Below, piece after piece: positions 32,264 to 62,056 of a DNA stretch of 64,000 nt (positions are counted from its first letter, which is position 1; each line of letters opens with the position of its first letter). Source of the stretch: an uncultured Actinomycetes bacterium (GTDB lineage Bacteria; Actinomycetota; Acidimicrobiia; Acidimicrobiales; RAAP-2). The stretch is taken from NCBI GenBank assembly GCA_903860745.1, contig CAIORQ010000044.1, positions 1-64,000 on the forward strand, written 5' to 3'. Both the position numbers and the translations under genes were made by a program. Below the pieces are notes generated by a model. That model was not told the DNA's origin, searched no databases, and was given only the letters and a program-made list of their open reading frames with translations.

Positions 32264-34102
32264 GTGCCGAAAACCCTCCCCCCGCGCTCGCGAGCGGGTG
32301 GAGAAGGCGGCGCCAATCCCCTCGGCGGGGTCTTCTCCACCTACCCCGGACCGCGCGCGCAGATCTCGCGCGACACCACCCTGCCCTGGTGGCGACGGGT
32401 CTTGCCGATCATCGCGTCGCATCGCGTCACCTTCATCGCGTCCATCGCCCTCTCCTTCGCCAGCCTGATCTTCCAGACCCTGGTACCCAACATGCTCAAC
32501 CACGCGATCACCAACGTGCTGCAACGCCACGCGGGCTCGCTGCGCCAGGCGGTGATCGAGATCCTCGTCGTCGGCGTCGTCGCCGGTGCCACCGGCATCG
32601 TCTCGCGCCAGTTCCTCTACCGCACCGCCTACGAGGTCGAGGCGGACCTGCGCTCGTTGATCTACGAGCACCTCACCTGGCTGTCCTTCGGCTTCTACGA
32701 CCGGGTACAGTCCGGCCAGCTGATCAGTCGCGCCAACTCCGACATCCGCAGCGTGCAGATGTACTCGACCTTCGCGCCGCTGATCATCGTGCAGGCCTCG
32801 ATCGGAGTGCTGGCCTTCGGCTTCATGGTCTCGATCGACCCGCTACTCGCGCTGGTCGCCCTGACGATCATGCCGATCCTCTACGTCGTGGGCATCAAGA
32901 TGCGCCGGGTGCTCTTCCCGATCTCCTGGGTCCTGCAGTCACGCCTGGCCGACGTCGCGACGATCGTCGACGAGAACGTCAACGGGGTGCGCGTGGTCAA
33001 GTCCTTCGCCCAGGAGGAGGCCGAGGTGAACCGACTGGCCGACGCCGCCGAGCGAGTGGCCTGGGGCTACACCAAGGACGCCGAGATCCGCGCCACCTGG
33101 TCGCCCTGGGTCCAGAACCTGCCCCAACTGGGCCTGGCCCTGGTGCTCGCCTTCGGCGGGGCCATGGTCATCCAGGGCCACCTGCACCCCGGAGCGATCC
33201 TGGCCTTCAACGCCTACCTGATGATGCTCCAGGCCCCCTTCATGATGTTGGGCCAATTGGTGATGATGGGCCAGCGGGCCAAGGCCAGCGCCGAGCGCAT
33301 CTTCGAGATCCTCGACGAGCGCCCCGAGATCGTCGAGCGCCCCGGCGCCTTCGACCTCGTGCAGGTGGCCGGTGCGCTCGACTTCGACCACGTGCGCTTC
33401 GGCTATCACGCCGACAACGAGATCCTCCGGGACTTCGACCTGCACGTCGACCCGGGCGAGACCGTGGCGCTGGTCGGACGCACCGGTTCGGGCAAGTCCA
33501 CCGTCGCGCGCCTGCTGACGCGCTTCTACGACGTCTCCGGCGGCGCCGTGCGCGTCGACGGGCACGACGTGCGCGACGTGACCCTGGCCTCGTTGCGCGA
33601 GAACGTCGGCGTGGTGCTCGACGAGCCCTTCCTCTTCTCGGTGAGCGTGCGCGACAACATCGCCTACGGCGTGCCCCACGCGTCGCCCGAGGCGATCGAG
33701 GCCGCGGCGCGCGCGGCGGCCGCCCACGACTTCATCCTCGAACTGCCCGAGGGCTACGACACGGTGATCGGCGAACGCGGCTACACCCTCTCGGGCGGCC
33801 AGCGCCAGCGCCTGGCCATCGCGCGCACCCTGTTGGTCAACCCACCCGTGTTGATCCTCGACGACGCCACCAGCGCCGTCGACGTCCACGTGGAGTCCAC
33901 CATCTACGGGGCCCTGCGCGAGCTGATGAGTTCGCGCACCACCCTGGTGATCGCGCACCGCATCTCCACCATCGCCCTGGCGCGACGCGTCGTGGTGCTC
34001 GAGGAGGGGCGCGTGGTCGCCGACGGCACGCACGAGGAACTGCTCGCCACCTCCCCCCTCTACGGCGAGATCCTGGCCCAGACCATGGTCGAGGAGGCCT
34101 GA
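32264..34102 (+). CDS. ABC exporter half-transporter A (heterodimer)
   Basis: A 612-residue fusion of six-helix membrane domain and ATPase. Walker A GRTGSGKST is near residue 404, signature LSGGQRQR near 509, Walker B VLILDDATSAVD near 529 and the H-loop is IAHR. Walker B ends in DD, so the catalytic glutamate is aspartate, the usual mark of the degenerate site in a heterodimeric exporter. GTG at 32264 is chosen since TACGAT lies 6 nt upstream; the frame upstream reads as non-coding. It overlaps the next ABC gene (TGATG). Substrate not predictable; drug or lipid export is usual. Confidence 0.93.
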   Translation: MPKTLPPRSRAGGEGGANPLGGVFSTYPGPRAQISRDTTLPWWRRVLPIIASHRVTFIASIALSFASLIFQTLVPNMLNHAITNVLQRHAGSLRQAVIEILVVGVVAGATGIVSRQFLYRTAYEVEADLRSLIYEHLTWLSFGFYDRVQSGQLISRANSDIRSVQMYSTFAPLIIVQASIGVLAFGFMVSIDPLLALVALTIMPILYVVGIKMRRVLFPISWVLQSRLADVATIVDENVNGVRVVKSFAQEEAEVNRLADAAERVAWGYTKDAEIRATWSPWVQNLPQLGLALVLAFGGAMVIQGHLHPGAILAFNAYLMMLQAPFMMLGQLVMMGQRAKASAERIFEILDERPEIVERPGAFDLVQVAGALDFDHVRFGYHADNEILRDFDLHVDPGETVALVGRTGSGKSTVARLLTRFYDVSGGAVRVDGHDVRDVTLASLRENVGVVLDEPFLFSVSVRDNIAYGVPHASPEAIEAAARAAAAHDFILELPEGYDTVIGERGYTLSGGQRQRLAIARTLLVNPPVLILDDATSAVDVHVESTIYGALRELMSSRTTLVIAHRISTIALARRVVVLEEGRVVADGTHEELLATSPLYGEILAQTMVEEA

Positions 34103-36051
34103 TGGCCTGGGGCGGCGGATGGGGCGGCGGCGGCGCGATGTTCGGGGGGCGGGGCCCGCAGGCCGGCCTGCCCTTCGGCGGCATTCCGAGCGAGTTGGCC
34201 GAGGAGGCCGAGAGGCTCCTGGCGACCGAGCCCGAGCACCCCGCGTCGGCCCGGACCTTCCACCAACGACCCCTCGAGGACGAGCGTGAACGCCTCACCC
34301 TGCCCAAGATGCTCGGGCGCTACCCCCGCATGGTCGTCGAGGGGTCCCTCCTGGTGATCGTCACCAGCCTGCTGCTGCAGGCGGGTCCCCTCCTGACCAG
34401 CCTCGCGGTCGACCGGGGGATGGTGGGGACCCACCGCTCGCTCGCGGTGGTGCTGTGGTGCTCGGTGGCCTACCTGGTGATCGCGGTCCTCTCGGCCCTG
34501 GGTCAACGACGTCAGACCAAGGTCACGGGCGCCCTGGCCGCGCGCGTCATGCACGACCTGCGCATCCGCGTCTTCACCCACCTCCAGCGCCTCAGCCTCG
34601 ACTTCTTCACCGAGGAGAAGGCCGGCGTCTTGATGAGCCGCATGACCAGCGACATCGAGAACCTCCAGCAACTGGTCCAGGACGGCATCAGCTCCTTCGC
34701 CCTCCAGGGGCTGACGATGCTCGTCATCACGGCGGTGCTCTTCGCGCTCAACGTGACCCTGGCGCTGTGGACCATCTTGTTGGTGGTGCCCCTGCTCGTG
34801 GTGTTCTCGATCTGGTTCCACCGCGCCTCGGAGTCGGGCTACTTGATGAGCCGCGACCGCATCGCCAACGTGCTCGCGGACCTCTCGGAGTCGCTCTACG
34901 GCATCCGCGTGGTGACCGCCCACAACCGTCAGCGGCGCAACATCGTCAACCACCGTCACGTGGTGGGGGCGTACCGCGACGCCAACTTCTACACCGGACG
35001 GGTCAACGCCGTCTACGGACCGGCCACCATCATGATCGGGATCCTCGGCCAGGCGATGCTGCTGGGCATCGGCGGCGACATGGTGCTGCGCCACCGGCTC
35101 AGCCTGGGCGCGCTCTTCGCCTTCTTCCTCTACCTCAATCGCTTCTTCGCGCCCATCCAGCTCCTGGTGCAGCAGTACAACTCGCTCCAGCAGGGTCGCT
35201 CCTCGGTGATCCGCCTGCGCGAACTCCTGGAGACCCCCCCGACCGTCGACGAGGCCCCCGACGCCATCGACCTGCCGACGATCGAGGGGCGGATCACCTT
35301 CGAGGACGTGAGCTTCGGCTACGACCCCGCGCGCCCGGTCCTGCACCACGTCACCCTGGAGATCGCCCCGGGCGAGTCGGTGGCCTTCGTCGGACCCACC
35401 GGCGCGGGCAAGTCCACCCTGGCCAAACTGGCCAATCGCTTCTACGACCCCACCGAGGGACGCGTGCTGGTCGACGGGATCGACGTGCGCACCGTGACCC
35501 TTCGCTCACTGCGCAGCCAACTGGGCGTCGTGCCCCAGGAGCCCTTCCTCTTCGCCGGCACCGTCCGGACGAACCTGCGCTTCGGGCGCACCGGGATCAC
35601 CGACGACGAGATCGCCGAGGCCGTCGAGGTGGTGGGCCTGAGCGAGCTCGTCGATCGCCTGCCCCAGGGACTGGACACCGTGGTCCACGAGCGCGGACAG
35701 ACCCTGTCGTCGGGCGAGCGCCAACTGCTCGCCCTGGCCCGCGCCTTCCTCGCTCGCCCGCGCGTGCTGATCCTGGACGAGGCCACCTCCTCGCTCGACC
35801 TGCGCAGCGAGACGGTGATCGAACGGGCCCTCGACCGGCTCCTGGAGGGCCGGTCGGCCATTCTCATCGCCCATCGCCTGACCACGGCCCAGCGGGCCGA
35901 CCGCATCGTGGTCGTCGACGAGGGGGGTGTCCTCGAGGTCGGCACCCCGCGCGAACTGCTCGAACGCGGCGGCGCCTACGCCGCGATGCACGACGCCTGG
36001 CTGGCCTCGGGCGGGCGAGACTCGACCCGGGCGCCCGTCACGCCCAAGTAG
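34102..36051 (+). CDS. ABC exporter half-transporter B (heterodimer)
   Basis: A 649-residue half-transporter. A Gly-rich N-terminus (MAWGGGWGGGGAMFGGRG) of about 60 residues precedes the membrane domain. Walker A GPTGAGKST is near residue 431, the signature is LSSGERQL near 535 and Walker B VLILDEATSSLD near 556 is complete with Glu. The altered signature pairs with half A's Asp-type Walker B, giving one competent and one weakened site. The ATG overlaps the stop of half A, so equal expression is likely. Confidence 0.93.
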   Translation: MAWGGGWGGGGAMFGGRGPQAGLPFGGIPSELAEEAERLLATEPEHPASARTFHQRPLEDERERLTLPKMLGRYPRMVVEGSLLVIVTSLLLQAGPLLTSLAVDRGMVGTHRSLAVVLWCSVAYLVIAVLSALGQRRQTKVTGALAARVMHDLRIRVFTHLQRLSLDFFTEEKAGVLMSRMTSDIENLQQLVQDGISSFALQGLTMLVITAVLFALNVTLALWTILLVVPLLVVFSIWFHRASESGYLMSRDRIANVLADLSESLYGIRVVTAHNRQRRNIVNHRHVVGAYRDANFYTGRVNAVYGPATIMIGILGQAMLLGIGGDMVLRHRLSLGALFAFFLYLNRFFAPIQLLVQQYNSLQQGRSSVIRLRELLETPPTVDEAPDAIDLPTIEGRITFEDVSFGYDPARPVLHHVTLEIAPGESVAFVGPTGAGKSTLAKLANRFYDPTEGRVLVDGIDVRTVTLRSLRSQLGVVPQEPFLFAGTVRTNLRFGRTGITDDEIAEAVEVVGLSELVDRLPQGLDTVVHERGQTLSSGERQLLALARAFLARPRVLILDEATSSLDLRSETVIERALDRLLEGRSAILIAHRLTTAQRADRIVVVDEGGVLEVGTPRELLERGGAYAAMHDAWLASGGRDSTRAPVTPK

Positions 36052-58574: not shown

Positions 58575-60302
58575 ATGCCGCATCTGCCGTACCGAGAATT
58601 GCCTGATGCGGACCCCGGCACGCCCCCGCTGCGCTCGCCCCAGCGCTACCTCGCGTGGCTCGCGCGCCACCAGAGCGGGCACCTGTCGGCCAACGCGATC
58701 TTCGGGATCGGCTGGATGGTGTCCCAGGCCCTGGTCTGGGCCGCGGTCGGCCGGGCCCTCGACGCTGGCGTCGTGCACCACGACCCGCGGGCCCTACTGG
58801 TCTGGGTGACCCTGGTCATGGCGCTCGGCGTCGTCCAGGCGGTGTGCGGGTCGCTGCGCCACCAACTCGCCGTCACTAACTGGATGCACGCGGCCTTTCG
58901 CACGAGCCACCTCATCGGTCGTCACATCACGGCCACCGGTGACGCCCTCACCGACGAGATCCCGGCGGGGGACATCGTCAACACCGTGATGGCCGACGCC
59001 ATGCGCGTGGGGGGGACCTTCGACTCCCTGGCCCGCTTCATCGGCTCGATCATCTCCTGGCTGGTCGTCACCGGGATCCTGCTCGCCACGTCGGTGCAGT
59101 TGGGCCTGATCGTGCTGGTCGGCGTCCCCGTCCTGACCGGGCTCACCGTCCCGCTGATGCGTCCCCTGCACCGCGCCCAGGCGGCCCAGCGCGAGGCGGC
59201 CGGACGACTGGCCGCCCTGGCATCGGACACCGTCACGGGTCTGCGCATCCTGCGTGGCGTCGGGGGGGAGGAGGTCTTCTACGCCAACTACCAGCGACAG
59301 AACGAGTTGGTCCGTCGCACCGGGGTGGCCATCGCGACCCCCCAGGCGGGACTGGAGTCCGGCCAGGTGCTGCTGCCCGCCGTGCTCACCGTCGTGGTGA
59401 CCTTCCTCGGCGCCCACGACGTGATGAACGGCCAGCTCCAGCCGGGTCAGCTCGTCTCCTTCTTCGGCTACACCACCTTCCTCACCACTCCCCTGCGCAC
59501 CGCGATCGAGTACGTCATCTCGGTGACGCGCGCCTACGTGGGCGCGGGCAAGGTGTTGCGCATACTGCGCGTCGCCCCCACGGTGAGCGACGCGGGCCCG
59601 ACCCAGCCGTGGCCCGACGACTTCGGGGCCCTGCACGACGCTCGCAGTGGGGTGACCCTGCGGCGCGGCGCCGTGGTCGGGCTCGTGAGCGCCGACAGCG
59701 CCGACGTCGTACCGGTGGTGGAGCGTCTCGGCCGCTTCAGCGCCGACGTCGAGGGAGTGACCCTGGACGACGTCGCGCTCGGGTCGATCGCCCTCGCCGA
59801 CCTGCGTCGGCACATCGTGGTCAGCGAGATCGAACCGCGACTGTTCTCGGGTCCCCTGCGCGAGGAGTTGTCCGGCCGTTCGCGACACGACGACGCCGCC
59901 CTCGAGGCCGCCCTGCACGCGGCCAGCGCCACCGACGTCCTCGACGTCCTCGAGGGCCGGCTGTCGGCGAGGGTCGAGGAGAGGGGCCGCAGCTTCTCGG
60001 GAGGGCAGCGTCAACGACTCGTTCTCGCGCGAGCCCTCCTGACCAGCGCCGACGTCCTGATCCTGGTCGAACCCACCTCGGCGGTCGACGCCCACACCGA
60101 ACAACGCATCGCCGAGCGTCTGCGCGAGGCGCGGATGGGGCGCTGCACGGCACTGGTCACGAGCAGCCCGCTGCTACTCGACGTGACCGACGAGGTCTAC
60201 GTGCTCGGCCAGGGACGCGTCATCGCCCACGGCACCAACGAGGAACTGCTGGCGAGCTCGCCCGACTACCGCCGCATCGTGCTCCGGACGGATCAGCCGT
60301 GA
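58575..60302 (+). CDS. ABC exporter half with degenerate ATPase (partner 1)
   Basis: A 575-residue six-helix plus ATPase protein. Where Walker A should be, it reads GLVSADSADVV (residues 369-379), with no lysine. Walker B is LILVEPTS (Asp replaced by Val), the Q-loop Gln is Glu (VVSEIEP) and the H-loop His is lost (LVTSSPL). The signature FSGGQRQR near residue 474 and D-loop SAVD are intact. So this domain cannot bind ATP at its own P-loop but can complete the partner's site. The ATG has AAGGA upstream; the stop overlaps the partner (GTGA). Confidence 0.93.
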   Translation: MPHLPYRELPDADPGTPPLRSPQRYLAWLARHQSGHLSANAIFGIGWMVSQALVWAAVGRALDAGVVHHDPRALLVWVTLVMALGVVQAVCGSLRHQLAVTNWMHAAFRTSHLIGRHITATGDALTDEIPAGDIVNTVMADAMRVGGTFDSLARFIGSIISWLVVTGILLATSVQLGLIVLVGVPVLTGLTVPLMRPLHRAQAAQREAAGRLAALASDTVTGLRILRGVGGEEVFYANYQRQNELVRRTGVAIATPQAGLESGQVLLPAVLTVVVTFLGAHDVMNGQLQPGQLVSFFGYTTFLTTPLRTAIEYVISVTRAYVGAGKVLRILRVAPTVSDAGPTQPWPDDFGALHDARSGVTLRRGAVVGLVSADSADVVPVVERLGRFSADVEGVTLDDVALGSIALADLRRHIVVSEIEPRLFSGPLREELSGRSRHDDAALEAALHAASATDVLDVLEGRLSARVEERGRSFSGGQRQRLVLARALLTSADVLILVEPTSAVDAHTEQRIAERLREARMGRCTALVTSSPLLLDVTDEVYVLGQGRVIAHGTNEELLASSPDYRRIVLRTDQP

Positions 60303-62056
60303 GCGCCCTGCCCATCGCCAGCTTCCCCGAGGTGCGGGCCTTCGCACGCACCTTGATCCGTCGTCACCGCGGCTCCCTGGCCATCATGCTCAGCCTCTAC
60401 GCCGTGGCCGCGGTCGCCGCGCTCGTACCGGCCTACGTGATCGGGATCCTCATCAACGACGCGACGACGCACGCGCTGAGCGACGCTCGCATCACCGCTG
60501 CGCTGGAGGTGCTCGCGAGCTCGTCGCTGGCCTACGGCGCCTTGACCTTCTTCGCCCGACGCCGCAGCTACATCCTGGGCGAACGCGTCTTCGCGGACCT
60601 GCGCGACTCCTTCTTGCAGTCGGTGCTCAACCTGCCGCTCCTCGAAGTCGAACGCGCCGGCACGGGCGACCTGCTCAGCCGCACGACCAGCGACGTCGAG
60701 GCGATGTCGCGCACCGTGCGCTTCGCCATGCCCGAGTGGCTCGTCGCCATCGTCCAGACCCTCCTGACCTTCGCAGCCATGGCGCTCGTGAGTCCGCTGG
60801 CGTCGCTGGCCTGCCTGGTGTCGATGCCCTTCTTGTTCTTCGCCACCCGCCACTACCTGCGCTACGCGACCCCCGGATACCGCCGCGAACGCATCAGCTA
60901 CGCCAGCCTGGCGGGTACGGTCTCCGAGACCGCCGAGGGGGCCCGCACCGTCGACGCCCTCCAACTCGCCGATCGTCAGAACCGCCGCATCGAGGCCAAT
61001 CTGCGCGAGAACTTCTACGCCGAGATGTACACGCTCCTGATGCGCATGATCTGGTTCCCCATCACCGAGGGGGCCTTCGCGCTGGCCGTCGCGGCCACCC
61101 TCGGCTGGAGCGGGCTGCTGGCCCTGCACCACGTGATCACCATCGGCGCGGCGACCACCGTCACCCTCTACGTGGTTCAGATCAACGACCCACTGGACCG
61201 CATCGTGTCGTGGCTCGACGAGCTGCAGATGGGGCAGTCCTCCCTGGCGCGCCTGGTGGGCGTCTCCGCGGTGCGCGACACCCGGCCCTTGAGCGGGCCG
61301 GAGCCGTCGGACGAGGAGCTGCGGGTCGAGCACGTCCATTACGCCTACGGCGAAGGTCGCGACGTCCTGCACGACGTGTCCCTGGTGATCCGTCCCGGTG
61401 AGCGACTCGCCATCGTCGGACCCTCGGGCGCGGGCAAGTCGACCCTCGGGCGTCTGCTGGCGGGCATGGACGCGCCCACCAGTGGGTCGCTGACCCTCGG
61501 TGGGGTCGCCGTCAGCGACATGCCCCTGGCCTCGCTTCGCCGCCACGTGCTCCTGGTGACCCAGGAGCACCACATCTTCTTGGGCACCGTGCGCGACAAC
61601 CTGGCCCTCGCCCACCCAGAAGCCACCGACCCCGCCATCGAGGAGGCCCTCGACGCCGTGGACGCGCTGGACTGGGTGCGCCTCCTCCCCCGGGGCCTCG
61701 ACACCGAACTGGGGACGACGGGACATCCCCTGAGCCCCGCCCACGCGCAGCAGATCGCCCTCGCCCGACTGGTGCTGGCCGATCCCCATACGCTCATCCT
61801 CGACGAGGCCACGGCCCTGCTGGACCCGCGAGCCGCTCGCCACCTCGAGCGCTCGCTCTCCGCGGTCCTCGAGGGCCGCACCGTCATCGCCATCGCTCAC
61901 CGTCTCCACACGGCCCACGACGCCGACCGGGTGTGCGTGATGCGCGACGGTCGCATCGTCGAGCTCGGCAGCCACGACGAGCTGTTGGCCCTCCACGGCG
62001 ACTACGCCGCGCTCTGGCGCAGCTGGCGACACGAGACGCCGTCGAGCGCGAGCTAG
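60299..62056 (+). CDS. ABC exporter half with catalytic ATPase (partner 2)
   Basis: A 585-residue half-transporter with six spans. It keeps Walker A GPSGAGKST near residue 375, Q-loop LLVTQEHH, Walker B LILDEATALLD and H-loop IAHRLH. Its signature reads LSPAHAQQ (near 477) instead of LSGGQ. That is the mirror of partner 1: together they form exactly one complete ATP site, made from this protein's P-loop and partner 1's SGGQ. Coupled by GTGA overlap. Substrate unknown. Confidence 0.93.
   Translation: MSALPIASFPEVRAFARTLIRRHRGSLAIMLSLYAVAAVAALVPAYVIGILINDATTHALSDARITAALEVLASSSLAYGALTFFARRRSYILGERVFADLRDSFLQSVLNLPLLEVERAGTGDLLSRTTSDVEAMSRTVRFAMPEWLVAIVQTLLTFAAMALVSPLASLACLVSMPFLFFATRHYLRYATPGYRRERISYASLAGTVSETAEGARTVDALQLADRQNRRIEANLRENFYAEMYTLLMRMIWFPITEGAFALAVAATLGWSGLLALHHVITIGAATTVTLYVVQINDPLDRIVSWLDELQMGQSSLARLVGVSAVRDTRPLSGPEPSDEELRVEHVHYAYGEGRDVLHDVSLVIRPGERLAIVGPSGAGKSTLGRLLAGMDAPTSGSLTLGGVAVSDMPLASLRRHVLLVTQEHHIFLGTVRDNLALAHPEATDPAIEEALDAVDALDWVRLLPRGLDTELGTTGHPLSPAHAQQIALARLVLADPHTLILDEATALLDPRAARHLERSLSAVLEGRTVIAIAHRLHTAHDADRVCVMRDGRIVELGSHDELLALHGDYAALWRSWRHETPSSAS

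Follow-up and report, generated by a model that had tools for sequence, protein, structure and literature searches.

A half-transporter gene pair with complementary motif losses

The window analyzed here is a 64,000-nucleotide stretch of DNA from an uncultured Actinomycetes bacterium of the order Acidimicrobiales (positions 1 to 64,000 of contig CAIORQ010000044.1, forward strand; assembly GCA_903860745.1, a draft of 110 contigs). Two genes on its plus strand encode ATP-binding cassette (ABC) half-transporters, which we call P1 (58575..60302, ATG start, 575 amino acids) and P2 (60299..62056, GTG start, 585 amino acids). Both open reading frames (ORFs) lie where an original prediction, made from the letters of the window alone, had placed them, and they overlap by 4 nt. 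P1 and P2 each match the Pfam families ABC_membrane and ABC_tran, with the transmembrane domain (TMD) preceding the nucleotide-binding domain (NBD), so that two TMD-NBD half-transporters are encoded together, as in heterodimeric exporters. In P1, ABC_membrane covers residues 58–307, while the ABC_tran match starts only at profile position 39, which is past the P-loop; we call its second domain a pseudo-NBD.

The original prediction held that P1 has lost the Walker A lysine and glycines, the Walker B aspartate, the Q-loop glutamine and the H-loop histidine while retaining SGGQRQR, that P2 keeps all ATP-binding motifs except for a signature reading LSPAHAQQ, and that these losses fall in one composite ATP site and leave the other complete. 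Alignment of the two ORFs bears out each of these statements. Where the A-loop hairpin with its tyrosine would be expected, P1 has a shortened stretch (59619..59669). The P-loop is replaced by VSADSADVVP (59685..59714), which aligns with VGPSGAGKST of P2 and places Asp at the position of the last glycine and Val at that of the lysine. The Q-loop region, IVVSEIEPRLF (59814..59846), contains no Gln, with SEIEP standing where partner B of an ordinary ABC pair elsewhere in the window has PQEP. The signature FSGGQRQR (59994..60017) is intact. Walker B reads LILVE, without Asp, and runs into an intact D-loop, SAVD (60057..60089), so that LILVEPTSAVD takes the place of the LILDEATSSLD type. In the H-loop, TSSPLLL (60159..60179), the His is missing and VTSSP replaces IAHR. 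P1 does retain the Walker B catalytic Glu, E499, a point absent from the original prediction.

P2 carries an A-loop (VHYAY, 61334..61348), a P-loop (GPSGAGKST, 61418..61444), a Q-loop (LLVTQEHHIF, 61550..61579), Walker B LILDE with the D-loop ALLD (61793..61825) and an H-loop (AHR, 61895..61903), and its signature is the degenerate LSPAHAQQ (61730..61753). The composite site made of the P2 P-loop and the P1 signature is complete, and the site made of the P1 P-loop and the P2 signature is missing on both sides.

The split is conserved among relatives

Relatives were drawn from genome contigs, 396 genomes of the phylum, 296 genomes of the class, plasmids and flanking stretches. From these, 35 pairs including that of the window were chosen by adjacency, with six cut duplicate loci skipped; a set chosen in this way cannot alone prove that P1 always neighbors P2. 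At one locus (L068 2702-5202, genome G042) the P1 and P2 genes are split into several frames, reflecting either a decayed pair or assembly errors, and this fragmented pair was excluded, leaving 34.

In all 34 pairs P1 lacks the Walker A Lys, the Q-loop Gln and the H-loop His and possesses SGGQ and the D-loop Asp. Of the 34 P1 proteins, 32 have lost the Asp of Walker B and two retain it. The A-loop hairpin itself is missing from 28 of the 34 rows, as read by eye in the alignment, another point that the original prediction does not contain. P2 has the A-loop Tyr, the three P-loop glycines with the Lys and Thr, and the Gln, Asp, Glu and His of the remaining motifs in 34/34 pairs, and LSGGQ in none. 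One complete consensus site is thus supplied by both partners in every pair, the cis motifs coming from P2 and SGGQ with the D-loop Asp from P1, and the partition is the one seen in the window.

A wider set was defined by two profile hidden Markov models, with scores above 420 bits for the P1 type and above 510 bits for the P2 type. It holds 51 distinct P1 proteins, one of which (L093) ends before the NBD, leaving 50 that can be assessed, and 48 distinct P2 proteins. GxxxxGK[ST] occurs in 0/50 P1 and SGGQ in 50/50; the Q-loop Gln and the H-loop His are found in none, and the A-loop Tyr column holds a gap in 35 and a Tyr in none. Among the P2 proteins GxxGxGK[ST]T is present in 48/48 and LSGG[QE] in 0/48, and AHR is seen in 46, the remaining two sequences being cut before the motif. 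Both profiles were built from such proteins and hence may be biased towards them. Matches below the P1 cut-off (401 bits and lower) were the P-loop-bearing partners of ordinary heterodimers, with the sole exception of L104, a cut P1-like frame scoring 384 bits that is likewise without a P-loop. P1 homologues with an intact P-loop, which the original prediction had named as the finding that would count against it, were looked for and none was found among the 50 distinct P1-type proteins with an NBD. The alignment of NBD motifs across homologues returns the same split in 34/34 pairs and throughout the wider set.

Conservation by column follows the same division. The invariant columns of 31 P1 sequences include S475, G476, G477, Q478, Q480, R481 and D505 and none of the ATP-binding residues, and those of 31 P2 sequences include Y350, G374, G377, G379, K380, T382, Q422, D502, E503 and H534. 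The complementary division of motifs between the two partners is a robust result.

The residues that replace the P-loop follow a pattern. At the position of the last glycine, 31 of 50 P1 have Asp or Glu and none has Gly; the lysine has become Ala in 39 and survives in none; the second glycine is replaced by Pro in 33 and kept in one; and the first is kept in two. In the canonical A and B partners of ordinary heterodimers the last glycine and the lysine are retained in 12/12 and 14/14 rows, respectively. Pro-x-Asp/Glu-Ala is what would be expected at the start of a self-capped helix. These residues suggest that a stretch similar to a helix N-cap, in many cases with this motif, now stands in the place of the P1 P-loop.

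Origin and selection

The window also contains an ordinary heterodimeric ABC pair (about 32396-36048), which serves as an internal control for the usual kind of degenerate site. Its partner A keeps the P-loop and has Asp-Asp in Walker B and Asp in the Q-loop; the signature of its partner B is LSSGE. The canonical A partners among the relatives are similar, with the P-loop kept in 12/12, the His in 10/12, the catalytic Glu replaced in 11/12 and the Q-loop Gln replaced in 11/12, and canonical B partners carry signatures such as LSAGE.

Trees were computed from all columns, from the membrane-domain columns only and from the NBD columns only, with 29 P1, 29 P2, 12 A and 14 B rows in the two domain trees. 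All three column sets separate P1, and likewise P2, from the remaining rows by a branch with support 100. Since the membrane-domain columns alone give the same clades, the grouping is not produced by the lost motifs. In the all-column tree a fork with support 97 joins the P2 clade to 13 of the 14 B rows, the B partners of ordinary heterodimers, and the placement of P1 beside some A partners is weak (support 66). It is plausible that canonical A partners resemble an earlier, half-way stage of P1: because they keep the P-loop and are mostly without the catalytic Glu, evolution from a catalytically dead site that holds ATP to an ATP-free interface would be a plausible path.

The P1 NBD is under purifying selection. 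Over six close pairs its ratio of nonsynonymous to synonymous substitution rates (dN/dS) is 0.09-0.20, vs. 0.05-0.12 in the other three domains; for three of these pairs dS approaches or exceeds 1.

A predicted transporter with a single ATP site

Neither P1 nor P2 has both halves of a site, so only a heterodimer can form a working site, and it can form only one. The same logic rejects homodimer action of either protein, as each is without one half of a complete site. We therefore consider it very likely that P1 and P2 form an obligate heterodimer with the fold of ABC exporters, in which ATP has a single site and the second interface is free of nucleotide. The single site would consist of the A-loop, P-loop, Q-loop, Walker B and H-loop of P2 together with the signature and D-loop of P1. 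The opposite interface would be free of nucleotide, with P1 offering neither a P-loop nor the adenine-stacking Tyr and P2 offering no signature there, and in most members the acidic residue at the last-glycine position of P1 may both fill the phosphate pocket and repel phosphate. ATP bound between the P2 P-loop and the P1 signature would close that side, and hydrolysis would reopen it, at a cost of one ATP per cycle. The dead interface would act as a permanent protein hinge, in which protein contacts take over the role that bound ATP plays in TM287/288 and at similar degenerate sites.

It is probable, though somewhat less so, that the whole of this large actinobacterial clade binds exactly one ATP per dimer, with the degenerate interface serving as a nucleotide-free hinge in which a self-capped, often acidic helix start replaces the P-loop, and with NBD closure driven from one side only. 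From the sequences we infer the dimerization of P1 with P2, the ATP stoichiometry, the hinge role and the N-cap geometry, and the inference of a one-ATP mechanism is a strong one. Among the points that speak for it are the complementary split in 34/34 pairs and in the wider set, the invariant columns of the two partners, the adjacent or overlapping genes (or, in three relatives examined, genes in line on one strand with a large ORF between them), the low dN/dS of the P1 NBD, the residues in place of its P-loop and the half-way state of the canonical A partners.

Several observations weigh against this proposal. The Walker B Glu position is Glu in 33 of 50 P1, Asp in 16 and Asn in one, and five P1 still have the Asp of Walker B; such residues would be needless in a site that never holds ATP unless they served another contact. 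The acidic residue at the last-glycine position is not universal, as 19 of 50 P1 carry another residue. The P1 NBD is slightly less constrained than the other three domains. Finally, the AlphaFold2 models, built with 8 close sequences each, are poor, with a mean predicted local distance difference test (pLDDT) score of 54 for P1 and 38 for P2, a quality too low for reading the shape of the dead site from them. Block-mean pLDDT in the P1 model is 61-89 at residues 341-420 and 65-89 at residues 511-570. The same model begins a helix at residue 375, ~3 residues before the Lys position, an observation that carries little weight in so poor a model.

The retained Walker B Glu would also fit an ordinary degenerate-site heterodimer, in which a diverged P1 site keeps a structural ATP by means of unusual contacts, in the manner of Pdr5 or TM287/288. 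Known degenerate sites, in the portions of the literature available to us, bind nucleotide in at least some states, and that of Pdr5 still shows ATP (PMC8421411) with its Walker A Lys changed to Cys (PMC7756269). We nonetheless regard this explanation as unlikely, since P1 is without the Lys, the last Gly and the A-loop Tyr in 50/50 and without the first Gly in 48/50, the loop is often acidic, and ordinary A partners keep their P-loop (12/12). The patterned loop, with its Pro, Asp/Glu and Ala preferences, and the purifying selection on the domain would also be expected if the P1 pocket had been re-purposed for another ligand or regulator; we find this quite improbable, as the loop pattern is equally explained by a helix cap and no conserved alternative ligand motif was noticed, though no systematic search was made. 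Local decay, or a sequencing or binning error in the window genome, which a draft assembly in many contigs might invite, can be rejected because the same pattern recurs in open frames in many other genomes and in plasmids, and because of the dN/dS of the P1 NBD.

Spread in actinobacteria

The survey of the spread of the pair covered the Actinomycetota. The threshold for presence of P1 was placed at 1e-122, between the best canonical match seen (400 bits) and the lowest-scoring P1 that was inspected by eye (454 bits). At this threshold P1 is present in at least 26 of the 396 phylum genomes and in at least 60 of the 61 genomes from the genus to which G128 belongs, probably Streptomyces. Both counts are lower bounds, as genomes G171 and G369 hold P-loop-less P1-like frames (L049, L050) that score below it. 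In the class sample, scores above 430 bits were obtained in 16/296 genomes; the family to which the window belongs, with 19 genomes in the sample, accounts for 14 of these. Records with named organisms place members in Arthrobacter (L074), Nonomuraea (L075) and Streptomyces (L076-L080), and further members come from metagenome-assembled genomes (MAGs) whose titles read Acidimicrobiales, Acidimicrobiaceae, Actinomycetes or the like. Each of the five annotated plasmid records examined names the product simply "ABC transporter ATP-binding protein". A MAG titled Acidobacteria (L003 4001-5407) contains a P1, cut by the contig end, that is 81% identical to the one in the window; its title or binning may be wrong.

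Gene neighborhood

In adjacent pairs the P2 start is projected to lie from 1 base before to ~200 bases after the end of P1. Around the window pair no ORF of nonribosomal peptide synthetase (NRPS) size was found within the listing for 54-64 kb, and the two neighbors scanned are an aminotransferase and a YCII protein. The window genes thus do not flank an NRPS in a siderophore cluster, and an NRPS stands beside distant relatives only. In the acidimicrobial relatives the scanned neighbors are an exonuclease VII large subunit, a metallo-beta-lactamase fold protein, a FAD/NAD oxidoreductase, an RNase_H_2 protein and an extra ABC-like ORF, none of which indicates a substrate. One such ABC-like ORF (L054 9409-10911), which matches the membrane domain only weakly, lies two genes downstream of the pair, and relatives of it occupy the same place in L055-L057. 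L063, L064 and L066 (minus strand) have four consecutive ABC half-transporter genes, with a P-loop-bearing ABC pair immediately preceding P1-P2 in the same orientation.

In three genomes of a distant subclade (L113-L118; G107, G334 and G704) the gene order on one strand is P2, an ORF of 3651-3698 amino acids, and P1. The large ORF of L114, the one tested, is an NRPS, with a gene for a periplasmic binding protein beyond P2, and these loci look like a coelichelin-type siderophore cluster. L080 is located in an NRPS/SidA siderophore cluster. Both L080 and L114 also carry uptake-type genes, and transport may run in either direction; importers with the exporter fold exist, IrtAB and YbtPQ among them. 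At L105 P2 directly precedes P1, at L106 no P2 was found within the stretch examined, and the loci L087 and L104 are truncated by the ends of their contigs.

P2 of the NRPS-linked subclade is also without its own D-loop, reading EATAEAGSxGA or ESTAEAGSEGA, in six of the 34 pairs. D-loop-less P2 proteins, with AEAGS replacing SALD, occur at L069-L073, L080, L105, L114, L115 and L117. The element missing from these P2 proteins is one that serves the dead site and the contact between NBDs.

Comparison with known systems

P1 and P2 are most readily compared with heterodimeric exporters of the TM287/288 type, which include BmrCD and MsRv1273c/72c and likewise consist of two half-transporters with one consensus and one degenerate site. 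When the P2 profile was compared with the Protein Data Bank (PDB), TM_0288 was the best match among bacterial half-transporter chains, the top matches overall being eukaryotic ABCB proteins. The difference lies in the degenerate site. The original prediction had stated that known exporters usually bind ATP there, and this holds in the parts of the literature available to us: the descriptions of TM287/288, MsRv1273c/72c and Pdr5 place nucleotide in that site, although one ADP state of MsRv1273c/72c leaves it empty. In contrast, P1 is without P-loop, A-loop, Gln and His and mostly without the Walker B Asp, so that no member of the wider set has a P-loop able to hold ATP at the degenerate site. 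Loss of the catalytic Glu at that site, named as a hallmark of such heterodimers in the portion of one paper available to us (PMC7544095), does not characterize P1, whose degeneracy sits in other motifs.

Human ABCG5/G8 belongs to the type II exporter fold class, unlike P1/P2. Its degenerate site, as described in the part of a review on degenerate sites available to us, combines a signature change with Walker A Lys to Arg, the Lys being the only Walker A change named (PMC7756269). That part of the review gives Lys replacements for Pdr5 and ABCG5/G8 and names no site without a P-loop (PMC7756269). The literature searched, with most subscription journals outside it and the sources seen in part, likewise described no exporter clade lacking the P-loop on one side.

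A possible link to a named system comes from Streptomyces coelicolor, where CchG and CchI, given as SCO0491 and SCO0493 in the text available to us, are the presumed exporter of coelichelin (PMC12161575). The P2 and P1 types flanking a large ORF in the three genomes described above fit these gene numbers, unlike the window pair, which has no adjoining NRPS-size ORF. Identity of the NRPS-flanking types with CchGI is offered as a lead only.

The purpose of the dead ATP site in asymmetric ABC exporters is called unresolved in the literature, as far as the parts available to us go. A clade that has given up binding nucleotide at one of its two interfaces would let nature answer the question: if it transports, a transporter can do without ATP at the second site and have that interface remade in protein. 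Such pairs could be recognized by a simple sequence rule, no P-loop and SGGQ in one partner beside a P-loop and a signature like xPAQAQQ in the other.

Yeast Pdr5, of the PDR/ABCG type, is a further system with strong asymmetry. Like P1/P2 it has one strongly altered site and one canonical site; NBS1 is altered in all but one motif, and the excerpt available to us calls this the most extreme asymmetry (PMC8421411). Its signature reads LNVEQ (PMC7756269, in the part available). Pdr5 differs from P1/P2 in being a single polypeptide of reversed topology (PMC7756269), with the NBD before the TMD, whereas P1/P2 are two genes with the TMD before the NBD, and in showing bound ATP in its deviant site (PMC8421411), again in the parts of these papers available to us. 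If the one-ATP mechanism is true, the P1/P2 clade goes one step beyond Pdr5.

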